Positions 47,282 to 56,208 of a stretch of 64,000 nucleotides of DNA are shown in pieces (positions within the stretch are counted from its first letter, which is position 1; every line of letters starts with the position of its first letter). The translations under genes were made by a program, and so were the position numbers. The stretch covers positions 62,001 to 126,000 of the forward strand of contig CANQFV010000001.1 in NCBI GenBank assembly GCA_947599875.1. The letters are read 5' to 3'. A model generated the notes under the pieces. The model worked only from the letters and a program-made list of their open reading frames with translations. It had not been told where the DNA came from and ran no database searches. The DNA is from an uncultured Oscillospiraceae bacterium. GTDB taxonomy: Bacteria; Bacillota; Clostridia; Oscillospirales; Oscillospiraceae.

Positions 47282-48589
47282 ATGTTGATTTTGATCGAAT
47301 TAGCCGTTGCCATGTTCGGCGGCCTTCTCATGTCGCGTCTCGCCAAAAAGCTCCGCCTCCCGGCGGTCACGGCGTATCTGGTGGCCGGGGTCCTGTTGGG
47401 GCCGTTCTGCCTGGGTATGCTGAAGGTCCCGGGCCTGGGCTTCGCCTCCCTGGAGGACGTGCAGGCGCTTGACCTGGTGTCCCAGGTGGCCCTGGGTTTC
47501 ATCGCCTTCACCATCGGCAACGAGTTCCGCCTGGAGCAGCTCAAGCACATGGGCCGCCAGGCCATAACCGTCGGCATCCTCCAGGCCGTGATCACCACCG
47601 CCTTTGTGGATCTGGGCCTGGTGGCGCTCCATTTCATATCCCCCAAGCTGATCTCCGTCTCCTCCGCCATAACCCTGGGCGCTATCGCGGCGGCCACGGC
47701 CCCGGCGGCCACCCTGATGGTGGTGCGCCAGTACAAGGCCAAAGGCCCGCTGACCAAGCTCCTCCTGCTTGTCGTGGCCATTGATGACGCGGTGGGCCTC
47801 ATGCTGTTCTCCGCCTCCTTCGGCGTGGCGATGGCCCTGGAGAAGGGGATCATCAGCCTGAAAACCATCCTCCTGGAGCCTGTCATCGAGATCGTCCTCT
47901 CCCTGCTCCTGGGCGCGCTGGCCGGATGGATCCTCCACCGGCTGGAGAAATACTTCTTCTCCCGTTCCAAGCGCCTGACCCTGTCCATCGCCTGCGTCTT
48001 CCTCACCGCCGGCCTCTCAATGGCGGAGTTTGACGTCGGCGGCATCCACATCGGCTTCAGCCTCCTTCTGGTGTGCATGATGGCCGGGACGGTCTTCTGC
48101 AACATCTGCGACTTCTCCCAGGAGATCATGGGCCGTGTGGACGACTGGACGGCGCCGGTCTTCGTACTGTTCTTCGTCCTGTCCGGCGCGGAGCTGGATC
48201 TGCGCATCCTCTCCAACCCCCTTGTCCTGCTGGTGGGCGTGGTGTACATCATCTTCCGCTCTCTGGGCAAGTATTTCGGTGCCTACTCCAGCTGCGCCAT
48301 GACCCACTGCGACAAAAACATCACCAGATACATCGGCATCACCCTGCTGCCCCAGGCCGGCGTGGCCCTGGGTATGGCCCTGACGGCCCAGCAGCTGGCC
48401 GACGGCTCGGTGGTGCGCAACGTGGTGCTGTTCTCGGTGCTGGTGTATGAGCTGGTCGGCCCGGCCCTCACCAAGCGCGCCCTCACCGCCGCCGGTGAGA
48501 TCCAATCCGAGGGCCGCACCAACGCCCGCCGCCGGAATAACCCCGTGGAGCTGTTCCACCTGGGCCACCACAACAAGCCCGCCCAGTGA
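47282..48589 (+). CDS. CPA2-family cation:proton antiporter
   Basis: 435 residues, about twelve helices. VTAYLVAGVLLGPFCLG near 30 and AATAPAATLMVVRQYKAKGP and VVAIDDAVGLMLFSASFG (the Asp-Asp core) are typical of CPA2/KefB-type exchangers. It lacks the usual cytoplasmic Rossmann (TrkA-N) domain. GGAAGGGAGA precedes ATG 47282. Ion specificity cannot be told from sequence. Confidence 0.9.
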   Translation: MLILIELAVAMFGGLLMSRLAKKLRLPAVTAYLVAGVLLGPFCLGMLKVPGLGFASLEDVQALDLVSQVALGFIAFTIGNEFRLEQLKHMGRQAITVGILQAVITTAFVDLGLVALHFISPKLISVSSAITLGAIAAATAPAATLMVVRQYKAKGPLTKLLLLVVAIDDAVGLMLFSASFGVAMALEKGIISLKTILLEPVIEIVLSLLLGALAGWILHRLEKYFFSRSKRLTLSIACVFLTAGLSMAEFDVGGIHIGFSLLLVCMMAGTVFCNICDFSQEIMGRVDDWTAPVFVLFFVLSGAELDLRILSNPLVLLVGVVYIIFRSLGKYFGAYSSCAMTHCDKNITRYIGITLLPQAGVALGMALTAQQLADGSVVRNVVLFSVLVYELVGPALTKRALTAAGEIQSEGRTNARRRNNPVELFHLGHHNKPAQ

Positions 48590-48600
48590 ATTTTCCCACA

Positions 48601-48636
48601 AAGAAATCCCCCCTCAGCCGAGGGGGGATTTCTTTG
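48601..48636. terminator. Convergent terminator
   Basis: A perfect 15-bp stem (48601-48615 with 48620-48634, AAGAAATCCCCCCTC) with loop AGCC. It separates the antiporter from the leftward surface locus. Confidence 0.85.
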
Positions 48637-48712
48637 TGAAAATATGTCAAGAAAGGAGGATCGTCAAAAAAAGCTCGTGATAAGGAGATCACAGCAACGA
48701 AAGGAAAGCTCA

Positions 48713-49063
48713 TCAGGAGAAAAAATACTGCCTGTAGGTGATCAGCATATACGCCGCCTTCACCGTCAGCCCCACATACACCCCGCAGCACAGCCACAGC
48801 CCGAACCGGGCCACGGGCCGCTCCCGGAACCGGTACATCACCCACATCGCCCCGGGGATCACCACCACCTTGTACACCACCGCCATCCAGGGCCGGTCCA
48901 GCAGCAGGGAGAAGAAGGGGTTTCCCTCCTCCATCCCCGGCACCCGCCCCATGCCGAACATCGTGTACGCGTAATCCGCCAGGCTCAGCACGGCGGTGAG
49001 GATCGCCAGGGTCAGATACAGCCGGTGATGGATGGGCCGCGTCTTTTTTTCAGCCGAGATCAT
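48713..49063 (-). CDS. Small membrane protein, DUF5658-like (copy 2)
   Basis: 116 residues with three or four membrane helices. The pattern LADYAYTMFGMGRVPGMEEG and NPFFSLLL, with NP after a loop, recalls the DUF5658 family. AAAGGAAG precedes ATG 49063 on the minus strand. It is related to the next gene across its whole length, including MYRFRERPVARFGLWLCC. Function unknown; position in the pilin locus suggests a role at the envelope. Confidence 0.65.
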   Translation of the reverse strand: MISAEKKTRPIHHRLYLTLAILTAVLSLADYAYTMFGMGRVPGMEEGNPFFSLLLDRPWMAVVYKVVVIPGAMWVMYRFRERPVARFGLWLCCGVYVGLTVKAAYMLITYRQYFFS

Positions 49064-49080
49064 ATATGTACCGCTTCCTT

Positions 49081-49443
49081 TCAGCCCAGGCTCACACGCC
49101 AGTACGTCAGCACCACATACAGCGCCCACCCGTCTATGATGAGATACGCCAAAAAGCACAGCCACAGCCCGAACCGGGCCATCGGCCGCTCCCGGAACCG
49201 GTACAGGAACCACAGCGCCAGGGGCGTGACCACATACTTCATCCCCAGCGTGGCCCAGGGCTTTAAGAGGATCCCGCCGAAGAACGGGTTGGCCTCGAAG
49301 CTGTCCGGGATAAACCGCAGGCCCAGGGAAGTGTAGGTGAGATCCACCAGGCTCAGCATCTGCGTGGCAATGGCCAGCCCCAGATACAGCCGGCTGTGGA
49401 TCCGCTTCTCCCCGCCGGGGCTCTTTCCCTTGCCTGCTTCCAT
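49081..49443 (-). CDS. Small membrane protein, DUF5658-like (copy 1)
   Basis: 120 residues. SLVDLTYTSLGLRFIPDSFE and ANPFFGGILL with FLYRFRERPMARFGLWLCF match the neighbouring copy, so the two are tandem duplicates. AAAGGAGA precedes ATG 49443 on the minus strand. The gap to copy 2 is 17 bases. Possibly accessory membrane components of the surface structure; not proven. Confidence 0.65.
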   Translation of the reverse strand: MEAGKGKSPGGEKRIHSRLYLGLAIATQMLSLVDLTYTSLGLRFIPDSFEANPFFGGILLKPWATLGMKYVVTPLALWFLYRFRERPMARFGLWLCFLAYLIIDGWALYVVLTYWRVSLG

Positions 49444-49517
49444 GAATCCGTCTCCTTTGGTGAAATGATTTCTTCAAACGGTTTGCCGAAAAAGACAAAT
49501 CCCGCCCCTTTCGGCCG

Positions 49518-49545
49518 CCGAGGGCCAGGTTGCCCTGGCCCTCGG
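49518..49545. terminator. Strong hairpin downstream of the secreted-protein gene
   Basis: A perfect 12-bp stem (CCGAGGGCCAGG 49518-49529 with 49534-49545), loop TTGC. T-run weak on both sides; it may stabilise an mRNA end rather than terminate. Confidence 0.55.
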
Positions 49546-49578
49546 AATTTATGGGTTAAGTGCGGTTAGGGGTGGGGG

Positions 49579-50946
49579 TCATGCGGTGTAGGTGTAGAAA
49601 GTGACTGTCTGTGTATCGCCGGAAGTTAAATACTCGTGAATATCGAAGGTATTGTTATTGCTGTACTGAGTTCCAACGATGTTATCTGTGAAAGTAGTCG
49701 AAGTTGTTCCCAGCATACCGTCCCGCTGGAGGAATCCGCCCGCTTCAACTGTCACTGTTCCGCTGTTTGTCAATGTTGCGTTTTCGGTCGTAGACCAACC
49801 GGCAAAGTTAAAGGTGGGAAGATAGTTTGCACCCATGTAGAACAGAAGCGAACCTCTGTGGCTGATGGTCAGGTTGCCGCCGTTATTCACATTGATATCG
49901 CAGCCGGGCATGACCTTGAGCCGCGTGTCAACTGTGACCTTGCCGCCTTCGCGAATGTCAACATCCACCTTGTAGCCGAACGGGCAAACCATCAGGCTGC
50001 TGTCAAGCGGATAGTGCTGACCGGAGACAGCCTCATCAAATTTCAAATCGCCGGTCATCACATTGGCACTGACAATGACGTTGGTGTTGGCAATTTTGCC
50101 ATCTTCGCCGACCGTCGGGTCAAGGGTCACAGACCCGGTATTCTCCACCGGTCGGATAAGGCCGTCACTGGCGAAGTAATGAATGTAAATATCAATGGGG
50201 GAATCGGACGCGTAGATAAACGCAATCCCATAGAGCGTGGCACCAATGTCATACGTCGCCTCGACCGCAATGCTCGCCAGCTCATACAAGCTGAACGGGA
50301 AGATCAAACGCGCTGCGGCTTTGGTCGAGGCTGAGCCACCGCGCCAGTCGCTGATTTCAAAGCGCTCGTAGACGTGGCTTGTGCTGTCAACGGAAATGCT
50401 GCCTGAGCCGGTGATATTGCCACGGGCGTATAAATAGGCATAATTTTCAAGCTTCATTGTCCCGTTAAGTTCAATGGCGCCGTAATCACCGTAGAGGAAA
50501 CCCGTCTTCGGCTGATTGCTTTGCTGATTTCCGGCAACAAGCAGCGTGCCGCCGCTGACAGTAATACTCTTTCCCTCGGGAACGGTCAATGTTACGGCGG
50601 CCTTGCCGTTAAGATTTACGCTTTTATCACCGGTATTATTGCCCAAAATGGTATCTTCTGTGCCGTTTTCAGCTGTGGGAATAGTAAGCTGAACGAAATC
50701 TCCGATGACGATAGAGTCCTGCAACTCATAGCTATGTAAGAGGACGACATTTTCATCTTCTCCCGCGTTTGCCAGGGCGTCCTCCAGGGTGTCGTAGAAA
50801 ACTCCTTTTGTAACATTCTCGGCAATCGCGTCTTCTTCAGGAACAACTGCGTCACCGGAAGCAATAGACGCAGGCGCCAAGCAAACAGCCAAGCTCAAAA
50901 CTAAAGTAAGCGCAATGAGTTTGATAGAAATCTTTTGCCGTTTCAT
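49579..50946 (-). CDS. Secreted beta-rich surface protein of the pilin locus
   Basis: 455 residues. A signal peptide (basic MKRQKISIK, hydrophobic core, AxA-like APASIASG) precedes a repetitive, Gly/Thr/Asn-rich chain with GGTLLVAGNQQSNQP, GNITGSGSISVDSTS and GGNLTISHRGSLLFY. This is typical of parallel beta-helix or adhesin-like proteins. No LPxTG or SLH anchor is seen. GGAGG precedes ATG 50946. It lies 94 bases after the prepilin-like gene, so it is probably a co-expressed surface component. Function not known. Confidence 0.65.
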   Translation of the reverse strand: MKRQKISIKLIALTLVLSLAVCLAPASIASGDAVVPEEDAIAENVTKGVFYDTLEDALANAGEDENVVLLHSYELQDSIVIGDFVQLTIPTAENGTEDTILGNNTGDKSVNLNGKAAVTLTVPEGKSITVSGGTLLVAGNQQSNQPKTGFLYGDYGAIELNGTMKLENYAYLYARGNITGSGSISVDSTSHVYERFEISDWRGGSASTKAAARLIFPFSLYELASIAVEATYDIGATLYGIAFIYASDSPIDIYIHYFASDGLIRPVENTGSVTLDPTVGEDGKIANTNVIVSANVMTGDLKFDEAVSGQHYPLDSSLMVCPFGYKVDVDIREGGKVTVDTRLKVMPGCDINVNNGGNLTISHRGSLLFYMGANYLPTFNFAGWSTTENATLTNSGTVTVEAGGFLQRDGMLGTTSTTFTDNIVGTQYSNNNTFDIHEYLTSGDTQTVTFYTYTA

Positions 50947-51040
50947 AGTATTACCTCCAGAATAAAATATTTTTTGGGAGAATTAACAGTATGGGTGCAT
51001 ATATTCACTTTTTTTCCCAGTTCCTATCAAATCCCCCGAT

Positions 51041-52612
51041 TTAATGAACCTCAACTGTTACTGTTGTCACTTCGCCTTGACCGAGAGTTATCGACAAAGT
51101 TGCACTACCGGGACCATTCACCGTAACAGTCCAGTTTGCACCGTTCCCTTTTACAGTTATGCAATCATCTGTATCTTCTTTCTCAGAAACTTCTGCTCTC
51201 TGTACTCTTTGCGAAAGGTTTGTATCATTTGTAAAGAAACGAATTGAACATGTTGTAGGCCCGCCTTTTGAGCATAGAGAGATATTACTATTATCAAAAG
51301 TGACTGTGACAGTCCCAGACGGCTTTTTAATTTCACCAGAAATTTCTGTCGTATGTGCCAGATTGCAGACCTCAGTACCTCCGGCAGCGCCTGCGTCGCT
51401 TGTTACGTCAAACTCGTCCAATTCTTTTCCGTGCCAATCGATGTTGAGCCTGCCGTCTTTTGACGTAACAGTCGCGTACAATGCGCTTTGGCTGTCTGCC
51501 ATTGATGCCTGGATTGCTTCCCAGTTGTCACGGGATTCCATGATGGTTTCGGTAATGCCCACATATCCGGTCAGTGCGTCATAATAATCGAAGTCTGTAA
51601 TGGGCTTACCACTCGAGGTCAAATCATCCTCCACGGCTTTTCCGGCCTCCAGCATACCGAGAAAAGCGGTCGCATCGGCCTCCGCCTGTCCGTTCTTTTG
51701 ATAATCATCAATGATTTTAGTCCATTCACTCGAGACAGAGGATGCCGCTTCAAAATAACTTTCATAATGTGCATATGTTCCGCCTTTTTTAGTTGGAACG
51801 GGATTCCACGCCTCAAGCTCTGCTCTGGCAGTGTCGGAAAGATCCAGCTTTTCCGCGTATGCCTTGAAAGCGCAGCTGCGGGCCACTGCCATAGACAACA
51901 AGATACCGTCTGTTTCTACGTTGGTTTTGAATGTGTTATCGCTGCACATTCTATCAAACTTAAGATAAGCTGAATCGTTTACCGATGACTTCCAAGCATT
52001 GAGCATCACGTCTCTGTATGTCTCACCCTCGAATTGATGGGTCGTATCCGTTAATCCGTTTACGACCTTGCTGAGGTTTGTGGTGCTGTTGGTCATATTA
52101 TTGTAGAGAGCGACCATGGAATAGACGTCGTCCCACAGCTCTTCAATATTCCCGGCAAACGAGGCTGAATAATTGTTGTCCCAATACTTATCGACCATGC
52201 TGCCATCAAGGCCAAGACTGCTTGCGATGGAGTTTAGCTGGCCGGCTGGGAGTGCGCTTTCCCACTTGAGGTAAGAAAGCTTCGTGCCGCTCAGATCCCC
52301 GAAGGCATCCTCCAGGGCCTTTGCAACGCCCGGATCAGCGCAGATAATACCATTATCTGCCAGATAAACAGTCGTAGCTCCGTCAAACAGGCTGGGATCG
52401 GAGTAGTTTGCCAGTTCCAGCGCGTGATTGATCTCGCCCACGGTCTGTTTGTCCAGACCCTTTTTGGTGTACTCGATGTACCCCGTGTAGCCCACCGCGC
52501 CGATGCCCGCCAGGATGGCGAGAATGGCGATGACGATGAGCAGCTCCACCAAGGTGAAGCCCGCGCGTCCAAGCGCGTGTGTGCGTGTGTTGGTTGAAGA
52601 ATTTCGTTTCAT
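51041..52612 (-). CDS. Large prepilin-like protein
   Basis: 523 residues. A type IV prepilin N-terminus: short basic leader, then GFTLVELLIVIAILAILAG with Gly at -1 and Glu at +5, the signal for prepilin peptidase. It is much larger than a normal pilin (about 150 residues). The body has helical and Asn/Ser/Thr-rich regions, and the last about 100 residues (PSGTVTVTFDNSNIS, ATLSITLGQGEVTTVTVEV) look like an Ig-type beta domain. No peptidase, ATPase or platform gene lies in the window. AGGAGG precedes ATG 52612. It sits just downstream of the invertible promoter segment. Confidence 0.85.
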   Translation of the reverse strand: MKRNSSTNTRTHALGRAGFTLVELLIVIAILAILAGIGAVGYTGYIEYTKKGLDKQTVGEINHALELANYSDPSLFDGATTVYLADNGIICADPGVAKALEDAFGDLSGTKLSYLKWESALPAGQLNSIASSLGLDGSMVDKYWDNNYSASFAGNIEELWDDVYSMVALYNNMTNSTTNLSKVVNGLTDTTHQFEGETYRDVMLNAWKSSVNDSAYLKFDRMCSDNTFKTNVETDGILLSMAVARSCAFKAYAEKLDLSDTARAELEAWNPVPTKKGGTYAHYESYFEAASSVSSEWTKIIDDYQKNGQAEADATAFLGMLEAGKAVEDDLTSSGKPITDFDYYDALTGYVGITETIMESRDNWEAIQASMADSQSALYATVTSKDGRLNIDWHGKELDEFDVTSDAGAAGGTEVCNLAHTTEISGEIKKPSGTVTVTFDNSNISLCSKGGPTTCSIRFFTNDTNLSQRVQRAEVSEKEDTDDCITVKGNGANWTVTVNGPGSATLSITLGQGEVTTVTVEVH

Positions 52613-52988
52613 GGGTAGAGTTAAACCTCCTAAAAATATATTGCAGAAAGCGAGACGCGTGTTAGGGGCGCGTATCGCAGACTACCAAAAGCATTTACCG
52701 CCGGGCACAGCCTGCCAGCGTAAACCGGCGGCGTAAACCGGCGTCCCAGGGGGACGGCCCGCGATCCACCTAAGTTGCAAGCGGAGGTGTCGCGGCCGCC
52801 GTCCCCAGGGGGACGCCCGCAGGTAGCAAAATAAAATAGGAAGGCAATGTCCCGGCGCGGCTCCTCCCGGCCAGCCGGAGAATTTGCAGAAAAACCGGGT
52901 TGCCGCCCATGCGGCGCCCCGTTTTTTTCGTCAGAATCAACAAAAATGCTGACGAAGAACCTGTCCCACCCCCATTTCCCCCTTTGGA
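52613..52988 (-). other. Structured leader of the pilin transcript
   Basis: No gene. It contains a 78-nt inverted repeat (52740-52817, GGCGTCCC arms with inner pairing), two copies of GCGTAAACCGGCG, a terminator-like hairpin and a smaller stem. The leader from the invertible promoter would be about 440 bases long. Confidence 0.6.
52890..52928. terminator. Bidirectional terminator-like hairpin inside the pilin leader
   Basis: GCCGC/GCGGC (52902-52906 with 52911-52915) and flanking CGGG/CCCG. T7 follows on the plus strand and T5 on the minus strand. On the minus strand it lies between the switch promoter and the pilin gene. Confidence 0.65.
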
Positions 52989-53016
52989 AGTGGACATTAT
53001 AGATATAATGTCCACT
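52989..53016. repeat. Inverted repeat, left (IRL), of the promoter switch
   Basis: A 28-bp, nearly palindromic site: 13-bp arms around a GA centre. Its complement matches the right copy in 27 of 28 positions, including the centre. Confidence 0.85.
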
Positions 53017-53296
53017 AAACAGCGGCGGAAAAAAGCGGGCGGCAACAAAATTCTTCCTCCCTATTATATACAATCTGCCGAAATTGTCAATAGGTGAGGA
53101 AGGATCGCGCCAATTTTTTTACATACCGCGCTAAATAAGTACGCCGAAACGCACCCCTGTCCGTCTGCCCAAAATTTGGCAGGGAGAAGGGTGTGGATAA
53201 GTGCGCCCAAAATTCAAAAACCGTCAATTTCACCAGGAATCAAATCCCAAATCTTCCGTCCATATGGAAATATTGGGAAATGCCGGTGAAACAGGA
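53017..53296. other. Putative invertible segment carrying a promoter
   Basis: About 280 bp without a credible gene. It has a consensus promoter facing the pilin gene (ON in this assembly). Inversion would point it toward the recombinase gene's 3' end, antisense to it. Confidence 0.75.
53063..53090 (-). promoter_or_regulatory. Consensus promoter in the invertible segment
   Basis: On the minus strand, TTGACA (53090-53085), 16 bases, TATAAT (53068-53063), reading toward the pilin gene at 52612. Confidence 0.85.
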
Positions 53297-53324
53297 AGTG
53301 GACATTATATCTATAATGTCCATT
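53297..53324. repeat. Inverted repeat, right (IRR), of the promoter switch
   Basis: A 28-bp site with a TC centre, the inverse of the left copy's GA, with one mismatch in 28. It ends 28 bases before the recombinase stop. Confidence 0.85.
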
Positions 53325-53352
53325 GGCACGGCGGGGAGAGGCGGGCGGCGGA

Positions 53353-54309
53353 TTATTTTCTGGCGCGCCGGCCCTTACCGCCCTTTCGGTGGCGGTGGGG
53401 CCGTTTTGCGTCCTTCCTCTCCGCCGTCCCCTCCGGTTTTTCCTCCGGTTTTTTGTCCGGCTGCCTGTCCGGGTCGGGGAGCTTCAGGGCCAGGGCGTCC
53501 AGAAGCCGCCTGTGTTCCGTGCCGCTGGTGCGGGTGTAGATGCGCGTTGTCTCGATGCTGCTGTGGCCCAGCACGTCGGCCAGCTTCACCACGTCCTTCC
53601 CCGCGTCGTAGAAGGTTCTGGCGAACAGCTTGCGCAGGTTGTGGGGGAAGACCTTGGAAAGCTCCACACCGGCCTTTTCTCCCACCTCCTTCATAATGGC
53701 CCAGATGCGCCGCCGCCCTAAGGGTTTGCCCTCGCGCCCCGGGAAGATCACCCCGGAGGTGATGCCCTGCCGCTGGGCGAAGTCCTCTAACTTTCGGCCC
53801 ACGGTCTCCGGCACCATGACCCGCCGGAGCTTGCTCTTGCAGGAGACGCAGATCTCCCGCCGGCGCACGTTCTCCAGGGTGAAGTGCTGCAGCTCCGAGA
53901 CCCGGATCCCCGTGGAGCAGATGGTCTCCAGGAGCAGCCGGTCCCGCTCGCCGGCCGCCTTCAGCAGCGCCGCGTATTCCTCCTGGGTCAGCTCCTTCTT
54001 CTCCGGGCAGTAGGCGTCCCGCTGGATCACGATGCGCCGCGTCTCGCATCCCCGCCAGCCCATATACTGGAAAAACGACCGCAGGGACGCCAGAATGGTG
54101 TTGACGCTCCCCGGGGCGTATTTCCGCTCCATGAGCTGACGCTTGTAGCCCAGGGTGCCCTGGCCGCTGGCCTCCTGGCCCTCCAGGAACGACGCGTAGG
54201 AGCGCACGTCGTGGAGATACCGGCTGACGGTGTGGATGCTCCGTTCCCGGATGGCCAGGTTTGCCGCAAATCCGGCTACGGATTCCGGCGTGATGATTTT
54301 GAGTTCCAT
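53353..54309 (-). CDS. Tyrosine recombinase of the promoter switch
   Basis: 318 residues. SAM-like N-terminal core-binding domain (about 5-85), catalytic domain with Arg136 (STGIRVSEL), His223-x-x-Arg226 (PHNLRKLF), His249 (LGHSSIE) and nucleophile Tyr258 (TRIYTR). A Lys/Arg-rich tail (about 275-318) is unusual and may bind DNA. GGAGG precedes ATG 54309. It lacks the arm-binding domain of phage integrases and stands next to a pair of inverted repeats, as inversion recombinases do. It is probably the enzyme that flips the 53017-53296 segment. Confidence 0.85.
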   Translation of the reverse strand: MELKIITPESVAGFAANLAIRERSIHTVSRYLHDVRSYASFLEGQEASGQGTLGYKRQLMERKYAPGSVNTILASLRSFFQYMGWRGCETRRIVIQRDAYCPEKKELTQEEYAALLKAAGERDRLLLETICSTGIRVSELQHFTLENVRRREICVSCKSKLRRVMVPETVGRKLEDFAQRQGITSGVIFPGREGKPLGRRRIWAIMKEVGEKAGVELSKVFPHNLRKLFARTFYDAGKDVVKLADVLGHSSIETTRIYTRTSGTEHRRLLDALALKLPDPDRQPDKKPEEKPEGTAERKDAKRPHRHRKGGKGRRARK

Positions 54310-54447
54310 ATGATTCCTCCTTATAAAGTGGTATTCCTATATTTTGTCCGCTTTCAACCACAAAATCAACTGCAAAGCCCGTATTTTTTGGAATTTCTCC
54401 CGAAACGGGGCCTTTTTGACGTTTTCTGTACTTTCCCGGTAGGATGC

Positions 54448-54476
54448 TTGCCAAAGACGGCGTTCGGGGGTATAAT
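54448..54476 (+). promoter_or_regulatory. Promoter of the GDPD gene
   Basis: TTGCCA (54448-54453), 17 bases, TATAAT (54471-54476). Confidence 0.7.
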
Positions 54477-54515
54477 AGAGGACGATCAATCGAATTTTGC
54501 GGAGGGGATCCACCC

Positions 54516-55517
54516 ATGAGCAAGAGAGCGAAACGAGTTTTGAAGGCCCTGGCCGCCGTCCTGCTGACGCTGTGCGCCCTGGCGCTGGCGGCGTACTTCA
54601 TCGTCACCCACGACTGGTCGGGCGCGCCCCCGGTGGACGTGTCCGGCCTTGATAACCCCTACATATCCCAGACGGGCCTGCCGATGGTCTCCGCCCACCG
54701 CAGCGGCGGCGGCATCGCCCCGGAGAACACCCTGATGGCCTTCCGGAACGTGGTGGAGGCACAGGATTTTCAGGTGGAGATCTTTGAATTTGACCTGGCC
54801 CTGACGAAGGACGAGCAGCTTATCCTCCTCCACGACGAGACGCTGGACCGCACCTCCGACGCGGTGGAGCTTTTCGGCCATCAGGAGGTCTATCCCGGGG
54901 ACTACACCTATGACGAGCTTCGGCAGCTGAACATGGGAGAGGGGTTCGTAAACGAGGCGGGGGAGACCCCGTATAAGGGCCTTCGCGGTGACGAAATCCC
55001 GGAGGATCTGCGGGTGCTGAAGCTGGAGGATCTCTTTGATTATCTGGATGATTATGGCAAATATCGCTTCATCATGGAGATCAAGGACTCGGGGGAGCGC
55101 GGATGCCGCGCCGCTGACAGAATATATCAAATCCTCTCTGAGCGCGACATGCTCTCCAGGGCCATTATCGGCACCTTCCACGGGGAGGTTACGGAGTATA
55201 TGGACAAGACATACCCCGATCTTCTCCGCTCCGCCGGCGTCATGGAGGTGGCGGCGCTGTACTTCTACGCCCTCCTGGACATCGATCAACCGGCGGGTTT
55301 TTACCATTTTGTGGCTCTCCAGGTGCCGGATGAGGACTATATTGTGAAGCTCGGCACCACACGTTTTGTGAATTATGCCCATAAGCACAACATCGCCGTC
55401 CAGTTCTGGACGATCAACGATCCGGCCCATGTCCGCGACCTGGCCGGGAAGGGCGCGGACGCCATTATGAGCGACTACCCGGACATGGTGTACGACACCC
55501 TGAGAGGGGAGTCTTAA
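54516..55517 (+). CDS. Membrane-anchored glycerophosphodiester phosphodiesterase
   Basis: 333 residues. An N-terminal membrane helix (about 8-30), then the GDPD barrel with SAHRSGGGIAPENTLMAF (His/Arg), FEFDLALTKDEQLILLHDET (metal-binding Glu/Asp) and FIMEIKDSG. The end, VQFWTINDPAHVRDL, is typical. It releases glycerol-3-phosphate from glycerophosphodiesters, possibly from teichoic or lipid material outside the cell. GGAGGGG precedes ATG 54516. Confidence 0.9.
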   Translation: MSKRAKRVLKALAAVLLTLCALALAAYFIVTHDWSGAPPVDVSGLDNPYISQTGLPMVSAHRSGGGIAPENTLMAFRNVVEAQDFQVEIFEFDLALTKDEQLILLHDETLDRTSDAVELFGHQEVYPGDYTYDELRQLNMGEGFVNEAGETPYKGLRGDEIPEDLRVLKLEDLFDYLDDYGKYRFIMEIKDSGERGCRAADRIYQILSERDMLSRAIIGTFHGEVTEYMDKTYPDLLRSAGVMEVAALYFYALLDIDQPAGFYHFVALQVPDEDYIVKLGTTRFVNYAHKHNIAVQFWTINDPAHVRDLAGKGADAIMSDYPDMVYDTLRGES

Positions 55518-55614
55518 ACTCCCTGCGCGGCCACGGTTTTCTAATAAATTCCTGTCCTCGTCAAAATCCCCGAAATTTCTCCCCGCCGGCGCGTAAAAAA
55601 GCCCAAATACCCTA

Positions 55615-55643
55615 TTGAAAGTTGGCGGAAAGAATGTTATTCT
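55615..55643 (+). promoter_or_regulatory. Promoter of the hydCBA operon
   Basis: TTGAAA (55615-55620), 17 bases, TATTCT (55638-55643), about 90 bases before hydC. Confidence 0.65.
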
Positions 55644-55731
55644 ATTAACAATACTGACGTGCTTGGCACGAGGTACGGAAAAGGAAGTCCCGGCGACCGG
55701 GGCGGAAATCAGAAAACGGAGGTTTTTTTCT

Positions 55732-56208
55732 ATGGCTCGCTTAAGCGAAAGTGCCGTGGCGAAGATCAACGAGATTTGTGACAGATACGTTGACGAGCCT
55801 ACCCCGCTGATGTTGATCCTCAGCGACATCCAGAACGAGTACGGCTACATCCCCCTGGAGGTTCAGGAGCTTGTCTCCCAGAGGACCGGGATTTCGGTGG
55901 CGGAGATTTACGGCGTGGTGACGTTCTACTCCTATTTCTCCCTGAAGCCCAAGGGAAAGTATGTGGTGGGCTGCTGCCTGGGCACCGCCTGCTACGTCAA
56001 GGGCGGCGGACAGGTCTTTGACAAGTTCTCCGAGGTGCTTGGCATCAAGGGCGGGGAGACCACGCCCGACGGGCTGTTCACGCTGGACGCCCTGCGCTGC
56101 CTTGGCGCCTGCGGCATCGCCCCCGCCGTCTCCATCAACGGCAAGGTCTATCCCAAGGTCAAGGTCTCCGATGTCCCCGACATCGTGGCCTCCTACAGAA
56201 ACGCTTGA
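55732..56208 (+). CDS. hydC: Bifurcating hydrogenase subunit HydC (NuoE-like)
   Basis: 158 residues. Thioredoxin-like [2Fe-2S] protein with Cys in VGCCLGTACYVKG and RCLGACGIAP. It passes electrons between NADH and the hydrogenase. GGAGG precedes ATG 55732; the operon continues into hydB and hydA with short gaps. Confidence 0.92.
   Translation: MARLSESAVAKINEICDRYVDEPTPLMLILSDIQNEYGYIPLEVQELVSQRTGISVAEIYGVVTFYSYFSLKPKGKYVVGCCLGTACYVKGGGQVFDKFSEVLGIKGGETTPDGLFTLDALRCLGACGIAPAVSINGKVYPKVKVSDVPDIVASYRNA

Follow-up and report, generated by a model that had tools for sequence, protein, structure and literature searches.

The DNA analysed here, called the window, is a 64-kb stretch of an assembly of 2.73 Mb in 89 contigs, and within it two 28-bp sequences face each other across a short segment that holds no gene. 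The distal one (52989-53016, no strand assigned) reads AGTGGACATTA-TAGATA-TAATGTCCACT, that is, a half-site, a 6-bp spacer and a second half-site; the one closer to a recombinase gene (53297-53324, likewise unstranded) is its inverted copy, with the spacer TATCTA. Each of these putative recombination sites is nearly a palindrome, and when one is inverted the two are identical in 27 of 28 positions, with GA at the centre of one and TC at that of the other. Their arms share an exact stretch of 26 bp, and the 64-kb window has no other exact inverted pair of 16 bp or longer whose arms are separated by 100-1000 bp. Between them lies the predicted invertible segment (53017-53296, unstranded, 280 bp), whose homologous interiors are known in both orientations; the open reading frames that overlap it are mechanical and none was judged credible as a gene. 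On the minus strand the segment carries a predicted promoter, TTGACA-N16-TATAAT (53063-53090), which matches the consensus in 12 of 12 positions and reads left to a prepilin gene. In a scan of 52600-54500, 3 stretches resembled promoters, where shuffled sequence had a mean of 0.8. Inverted repeats around a short segment with an outward-reading promoter are the anatomy of an inverton. A preliminary description of this DNA had reported the paired sites with their GA/TC centre, which were confirmed base for base, and about 280 geneless bp with a consensus leftward promoter, which also stand.

The gene to the right encodes a XerA-like tyrosine recombinase, the presumed invertase (53353-54309, minus strand, 318 aa), and its stop lies 28 bases right of the right-hand site, exactly where it had previously been placed. 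Its two domains, PF02899 (SAM-like) and PF00589 (Phage_integrase), are those of an Xer-type tyrosine recombinase, and R136, K158/K160, H223, R226, H249 and Y258, which we take to be the active-site residues (R, K, H, R, H, Y), are invariant across six paralogues. The top curated family is XerA (NF040815), with 145 bits; this is below the equivalog cut-off of 220 and the protein is therefore not filed as XerA. The closest solved chains are 4a8e (XerC-like) and next 1a0p (XerD), and the FimB and FimE families match weakly, at 36-37 bits. The near-palindromic sites had been thought to make this locus unlike most invertons, a view that needs correcting, since such symmetry is the expected form where one Xer-type enzyme binds both sides, and it is found in related clostridial loci as well.

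To the left, three genes of a predicted operon lie on the minus strand: the predicted switched gene, which encodes a large prepilin-like protein (51041-52612, 523 aa), then a secreted-looking protein (49579-50946, 455 aa) and a DUF5658 protein (49081-49443, 120 aa). The earlier assignment of the first gene is borne out by its N-terminal prepilin motif (PF07963), and no Pfam match was found for the 455-aa protein. The fold model of the prepilin is moderate (pLDDT 73). A search of the PDB with it returned 673 matches at E 10 and none at 0.001 or better, the top ones being weak matches to the C-terminal beta domain.

The predicted leader of the ON transcript (52613-53062, minus strand) crosses the distal site and is strongly folded (z -7.4), the distance from the -10 box to the prepilin start codon being about 450 nt. 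A terminator-like hairpin on the plus strand (52901-52916) falls within the same region. Given so long and strongly folded a leader together with this hairpin, the ON state may be a weak one; the earlier statement that the pilin locus is ON in this assembly thus agrees with the direction of the promoter and is uncertain as regards expression. The leader also contains a GC-rich inverted repeat (52745-52811), and different hairpin elements with GGGACGG/CCGTCCC arms occur in the leaders of three other cassettes (C45, C36, C13). Rfam, at its gathering threshold, gave no match in 48500-56000.

Just past the -10 box the leader begins with GAAGAATTTYGTT (53044-53056). This motif is shared by 25 of 29 prepilin cassettes, and its complement lies in the first codons (52596-52608) of the window's prepilin and in those of many others. 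A translational lock formed by pairing of leader and start codon was considered and, on the 29 cassettes examined, dropped as a mechanism. The pairing beat its shuffles (fraction <=0.05) in 15 of them; seven cassettes have the motif and lack its partner at the start (L060, L105-L108, L113, L114), and four lack the motif itself (L161, L163, L164, L174). Every one of the 29 has further stretches in its transcript that pair equally well or better. Conservation of the leader motif is not explained by start-codon pairing.

Copies of the cassette in the same genome

A search of the window's own genome with its recombinase gave 21 matches, made up of 15 close paralogues, counting that of the window itself (43-100% identity over nearly the full length), and six weaker or partial ones. 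The downstream DNA is assembled for 12 of the 15, the other three (C42b, C8, C17) running into the end of a contig, and in all 12 the recombinase stop, a site, a promoter segment and the inverted site follow in this order, with the paired near-palindromes starting at or close to the stop. A large prepilin gene lies downstream in 11 of these cassettes; the contig of the twelfth, C61, stops at its distal site. The promoter points away from the recombinase in two of them, the window and C2, and toward it in the remaining ten.

The exact core ACATTATN4ATAATGT occurs at 25 places genome-wide, of which 24 form the 12 pairs beside recombinase genes and the last is a contig-edge site beside the recombinase copy C17; no exact core without a recombinase was found in the genome, and the reversed-pattern control has no occurrence at all. 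Allowing one mismatch adds a single place without a recombinase, on C11. So many cores, paired and inverted, do not fit a dif site, of which a chromosome has one. A scan of the same genome for canonical dif with a loose pattern found 12 places, against 5 for its control.

From cassette to cassette the cores of the sites hardly differ, and five loci have one and the same site of the C6 type. Five cassettes share a block of about 1.46-1.62 kb that starts ahead of the recombinase and reaches the prepilin N-terminus (93-95% identical to the C6 copy in four comparisons) and is embedded in unrelated flanks: duplication or conversion has spread the module. Several cassettes are interrupted by breaks in the assembly, and 6 of the 17 large prepilins have no assembled recombinase. 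A CRISPR-like array, with 19 repeat copies spaced 66-69 bp, lies at the end of the contig of the C67 cassette (L009, G000:C67, 6208-7508).

In the family to which the window belongs, 32 of 120 sampled genomes match the recombinase at E 1e-60, and the matching ones have one to four copies, except for the window's genome with its 15. Such an expansion is not unique in the genus, where the genome G024 has at least 16 matches listed above 200 bits, many of them with sites of the ACAAAA class.

Site grammar and matched spacers

GTDB genomes were scanned with six recombinases and the best 80 of 352 confirmed loci were kept. Among the 66 of these loci that have at least 600 bp downstream, an inverted pair scoring at least 18 lies within 600 bp of the stop in 56, against 1 of 357 control stretches drawn from the same loci; at a score of at least 20 the figures are 44 of the 66 and 0 of 357. 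The window's genome, its genus and the GTDB set (the best 80 of 352) were then pooled; 102 loci remained after exclusion of 11 duplicates and of loci with less than 350 bp past the stop, including C61, whose pair was read separately. With a pair defined as two ACATWA-N6-TWATGT sites having at most 4 deviations in their 24 half-site positions, 87 of the 102 pooled loci possess one. The 15 that fall below this threshold consist of 10 with a pair at 5-6 deviations and 5 without any. These sites are dif-like in that two symmetric half-sites surround a 6-bp centre; the dyad symmetry of the half-sites is 0.96-1.00, and the central four spacer positions are mostly non-palindromic. In one locus, L167, a 65-bp perfect inverted repeat holds doubled sites, two in tandem in each arm.

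The spacer follows a rule of its own. In 86 of the 87 pairs it is that of the partner, read in the inverted register, and 36 different spacers occur; between loci, spacers are identical in only 354 of 7482 comparisons. Our original choice of pairs used the identity of whole sites, spacer included, and was therefore repeated on the half-sites alone: with the choice blind to the spacer, all 79 unique pairs match exactly, 7 loci being ambiguous and 11 lacking two sites. Position by position, each of the six spacer positions is identical in 81 of 81 pairs, a profile that omits repeated left flanks and L214, the sole pair with unmatched spacers. Identity between partner sites drops within a few bases beyond the site. 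Such a profile would be expected if strands are exchanged within an overlap of 6 bp.

On a recombinase tree that is a quick one (SH-aLRT as the sole support measure, weak values on 28 of 93 inner branches, near copies kept in), the half-site classes ACATTA, ACATAA and ACAAAA require 3 changes over 91 rows, and when the 5 mixed rows are added as a fourth class the number is 6, against a shuffled mean of 43.8. The class of the half-site follows the tree of the enzyme: enzyme and site have been inherited together. The spacer rule and this co-inheritance further strengthen the earlier reading of the locus as a phase-variable promoter.

Opposite orientations and the presumed switched genes

Of 34 genomes of the genus that were searched (the window's own counted), 33 have some match to the recombinase, many of them distant. 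Two loci from sister species, L110 and L112, both carry cassettes of the C61 type, and their flanks are collinear, 184 of 198 aligned bases on the left and 372 of 434 on the right being identical in the same direction. Their interiors are identical in 281 of 287 positions if one of them is inverted; aligned directly, only 106 bases can be matched up, 78 of them identical. The interior of the window genome's own C61 is likewise identical to that of L112 in 282 of 288 positions when inverted, its right flank being too short for comparison. The sister-genome comparison, which the preliminary description had proposed as a check, thus reveals homologous switches in opposite orientations between collinear flanks, and it lends support to the inverton interpretation. 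The two orientations are seen for homologous cassettes between species rather than for the segment in the window. In the genus and the GTDB genomes (best 80 of 352 loci) no near relative of the window cassette was found, the best having 64-65% protein identity, and the flipped homologues accordingly belong to other cassette types. Sixteen selected interiors make 120 pairs, of which 118 align better in the orientation expected from their promoters and 2 are ties; no pair contradicts the expectation, although this is not an independent test, because the promoter direction itself defined the states. The window's interior beats its shuffles in only 13 of 15 comparisons and has diverged from the other copies.

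The order of prepilin, secreted protein and DUF5658 protein is recurrent. Comparison with 55 other loci showed relatives of the 455-aa protein, following prepilins in other cassettes, in 8 and those of the DUF5658 protein in 11, the two occurring together in L071, L110, L111, L112 and L120. Of the 24 N_methyl matches in the window's genome, 17 lie in large prepilins (408-544 aa), and all 17 have the N-terminal methylation motif PF07963 of pilins and pseudopilins. When these prepilins are compared in all pairs, mean identity is 74% over the first 60 residues and 30% over the remainder (range 15-68%). The pair at the upper limit, C66b (L068, 6131-7642) and C29 (L071, 34-1479), has bodies that are 68% identical and N-termini that are just 72% alike, which may reflect a reshuffling of bodies and N-terminal modules between cassettes. 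The machinery for type IV pili is present in two assembly clusters with T2SSE, T2SSE and T2SSF, one of which sits a few kilobases from the second ON cassette, C2. Taking the window's genome and the others together, the promoter faces the prepilin in 5 of 29 prepilin-type rows and away from it in 24; over all 96 rows there are 13 ON, 51 OFF and 32 without a clear promoter direction.

In other genomes the module also precedes genes of other kinds. Ten downstream proteins were scanned, of which two have SLH domains and two are ResIII/DEAD helicases with helicase-associated domains, and signals of the SipW-dependent type were present in three of seven that were rescanned. Relatives in the genus whose sites are of the ACAAAA class and whose recombinases belong to the same family (L117, L122-L124, L127, L128, L130, L134, L136, L140, L142, L143) have their switches in front of large proteins with signal-peptide-like N-termini, with SLH domains in two of the three scanned. 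In other Clostridia (L176, L193, L194) the module lies upstream of proteins with signal peptides of the SipW-dependent type, a kind known from TasA-like biofilm fibres. Elsewhere (L162, L165, L166, L181, L210) it lies upstream of ResIII/DEAD helicases with repeated helicase-associated domains, identified by scanning in L162 and L166 and judged from similar N-termini in L165, L181 and L210; such a helicase gene behind the module is possibly a phase-variable defence gene.

Probable mode of action, alternatives and known systems

Taken together, these observations argue that the window very probably contains an invertible promoter run by its own adjacent Xer-type recombinase and belonging to a dispersed, separately switched repertoire of prepilin-like proteins. 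Four subunits of that recombinase would bind the two symmetric dif-like sites (ACATTA/TAATGT half-sites around a 6-bp spacer), which are inverted with respect to each other and one of which lies just past the recombinase stop, and would bring them together; the enzyme would then exchange strands within the spacer, and the segment would flip. Since the spacers match solely in the inverted alignment, the product should be an inversion and not a deletion. In the orientation found in the window, an active promoter would read into the set of prepilin, secreted protein and DUF5658 genes (ON); after a flip in this strain, it would run into the recombinase gene from its 3' end, in antisense direction (OFF). 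The presence of 15 recombinase loci in one genome suggests that the prepilin-like proteins, which may be assembled as pilins and may serve in adhesion, form a dispersed repertoire whose members are switched separately. The module as a whole is probably a self-contained, phase-variable, XerA-like inverton that has multiplied into this repertoire.

The switches could be real and yet depend on a single master recombinase, or on a few, acting in trans, with no specificity of the adjacent enzyme for its neighbour. RecV of C. difficile does serve several distant switches (PMC5903667), and cores so alike, with one type of site shared by five loci, make cross-action plausible; we nevertheless think this unlikely, because at all 12 assembled switches a separate recombinase gene ends at the site and because the half-site class tracks the recombinase tree. 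It is improbable that the family is switchable and the window's copy frozen, its segment no longer flipping or its ON promoter yielding no protein. The divergence of the interior and the great stability of the leader would fit a frozen copy, but the sites differ at a single position, the spacers are perfectly matched, the recombinase is intact and the promoter is perfect.

The palindromic form of each site, and the fact that the terminator scan scored the right-hand site itself as terminator-like, are what one would expect of regulator operators or terminators, or of mobile-element remnants, that take no part in recombination. Such an origin is very improbable, as it explains neither the partner-matched, locus-specific spacers nor the inverted interiors between collinear flanks; furthermore, with the recombinase outside the pair and no gene inside, this is not an excisable element, which counts against a remnant. 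We attach almost no credence to a one-enzyme system of chromosome dimer resolution, of the XerS or XerH type, with its dif site. It would account for a gene beside a site of dif-like symmetry, as in XerS/difSL and XerH/difH (PMC5357621), and is contradicted by the 25 exact sites, their inverted pairing and the 15 enzymes of this single genome.

Returning to an inverton served by its own recombinase, a bolder proposal may be made, tentatively and as a rather doubtful one. At least 15 independent inverton bits, exchange between loci through identical sites (at least five cassettes) and antisense RNA from the OFF promoter that damps the recombinase and so stabilises the OFF state (10 OFF against 2 ON) might together constitute a heritable, combinatorial surface code, operated by an Xer lineage dedicated to phase variation.

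Invertible promoters as such are not new, and a catalogue of 2025 includes clostridial ones next to tyrosine recombinase genes. As far as our literature search showed, three features look new, namely the explicit site grammar, the inheritance of each site type with its enzyme, and the expansion of the prepilin cassettes to many copies; the search, which covered few subscription papers, yielded no paper that we recognised as describing Xer-type invertons controlling prepilins in Clostridia. The grammar, ACATWA-N6-TWATGT with a locus-specific spacer matched by the partner, would allow invertons of this family to be predicted from a single assembly, without reads, and the spacer rule makes recombinase specificity directly testable in E. 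coli. A second apparently new point is that a lineage of recombinases can be tied directly to its own site. The expansion itself brings together 15 recombinase loci and 17 large prepilins, with 30% average identity past residue 60, in one gut genome. If the switches work, this uncultured gut lineage has very many surface states, and the family would be a simple system in which to study how gut bacteria hedge adhesion or evade phages and antibodies.

Among known switches, fimS of E. coli is a short invertible promoter upstream of a pilus gene, with the FimB and FimE tyrosine recombinases encoded next to it. The window's switch resembles it in the short invertible promoter, the pilus-type gene downstream and the adjacent tyrosine recombinase; it differs in that fimS has two enzymes of another branch and controls chaperone-usher fimbriae, whereas the window has one enzyme and prepilins. 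The system is listed, with FimB/FimE, in PMC11868660. As regards the sites, dif consists of two half-sites, related by a partial dyad, around a centre that is normally 6-8 bp long, and XerS/difSL, XerH/difH and archaeal XerA resemble the window family in using a single tyrosine recombinase, encoded beside a symmetric site in the case of XerS and XerH; those enzymes, however, resolve dimers at one site, whereas the window family has many inverted pairs of sites around promoters (PMC5357621). An Xer-type enzyme, Xer1, has been proven to drive phase variation of the Vpma surface proteins in Mycoplasma, where the mpl genes furthermore have many separately invertible promoters in one genome (PMC2268961). 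Vpma inversions join genes to one promoter within one locus, unlike the dispersed loci of the window family, each with its own promoter and enzyme and with prepilins as targets (PMC2268961).

Closer relatives are to be sought in the Clostridia. RecV of C. difficile is also a clostridial tyrosine recombinase that flips short regulatory segments, and one of the C. difficile switches, Cdi7, adjoins a recombinase; RecV serves several distant switches with mostly unrelated repeats, whereas in the window family each switch has its own enzyme and the grammar is shared (PMC5903667). Jin et al. (2025; PMC11892184) linked a clostridial inverton group, 139 (33 invertons, 32 of them from Clostridia), to tyrosine invertase group 35, and changes of orientation over time were seen in reads of Intestinimonas butyriciproducens and Clostridium sp. 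D5 (PMC11892184). The window family shares with these groups its clostridial hosts and the position of the invertons beside tyrosine recombinase genes, and it is probably, to judge by their description, group 139/35 or close to it; its prepilin targets, its dif-like grammar and its 15-copy expansion go beyond what the passages of that paper on group 139 mention (PMC11892184).
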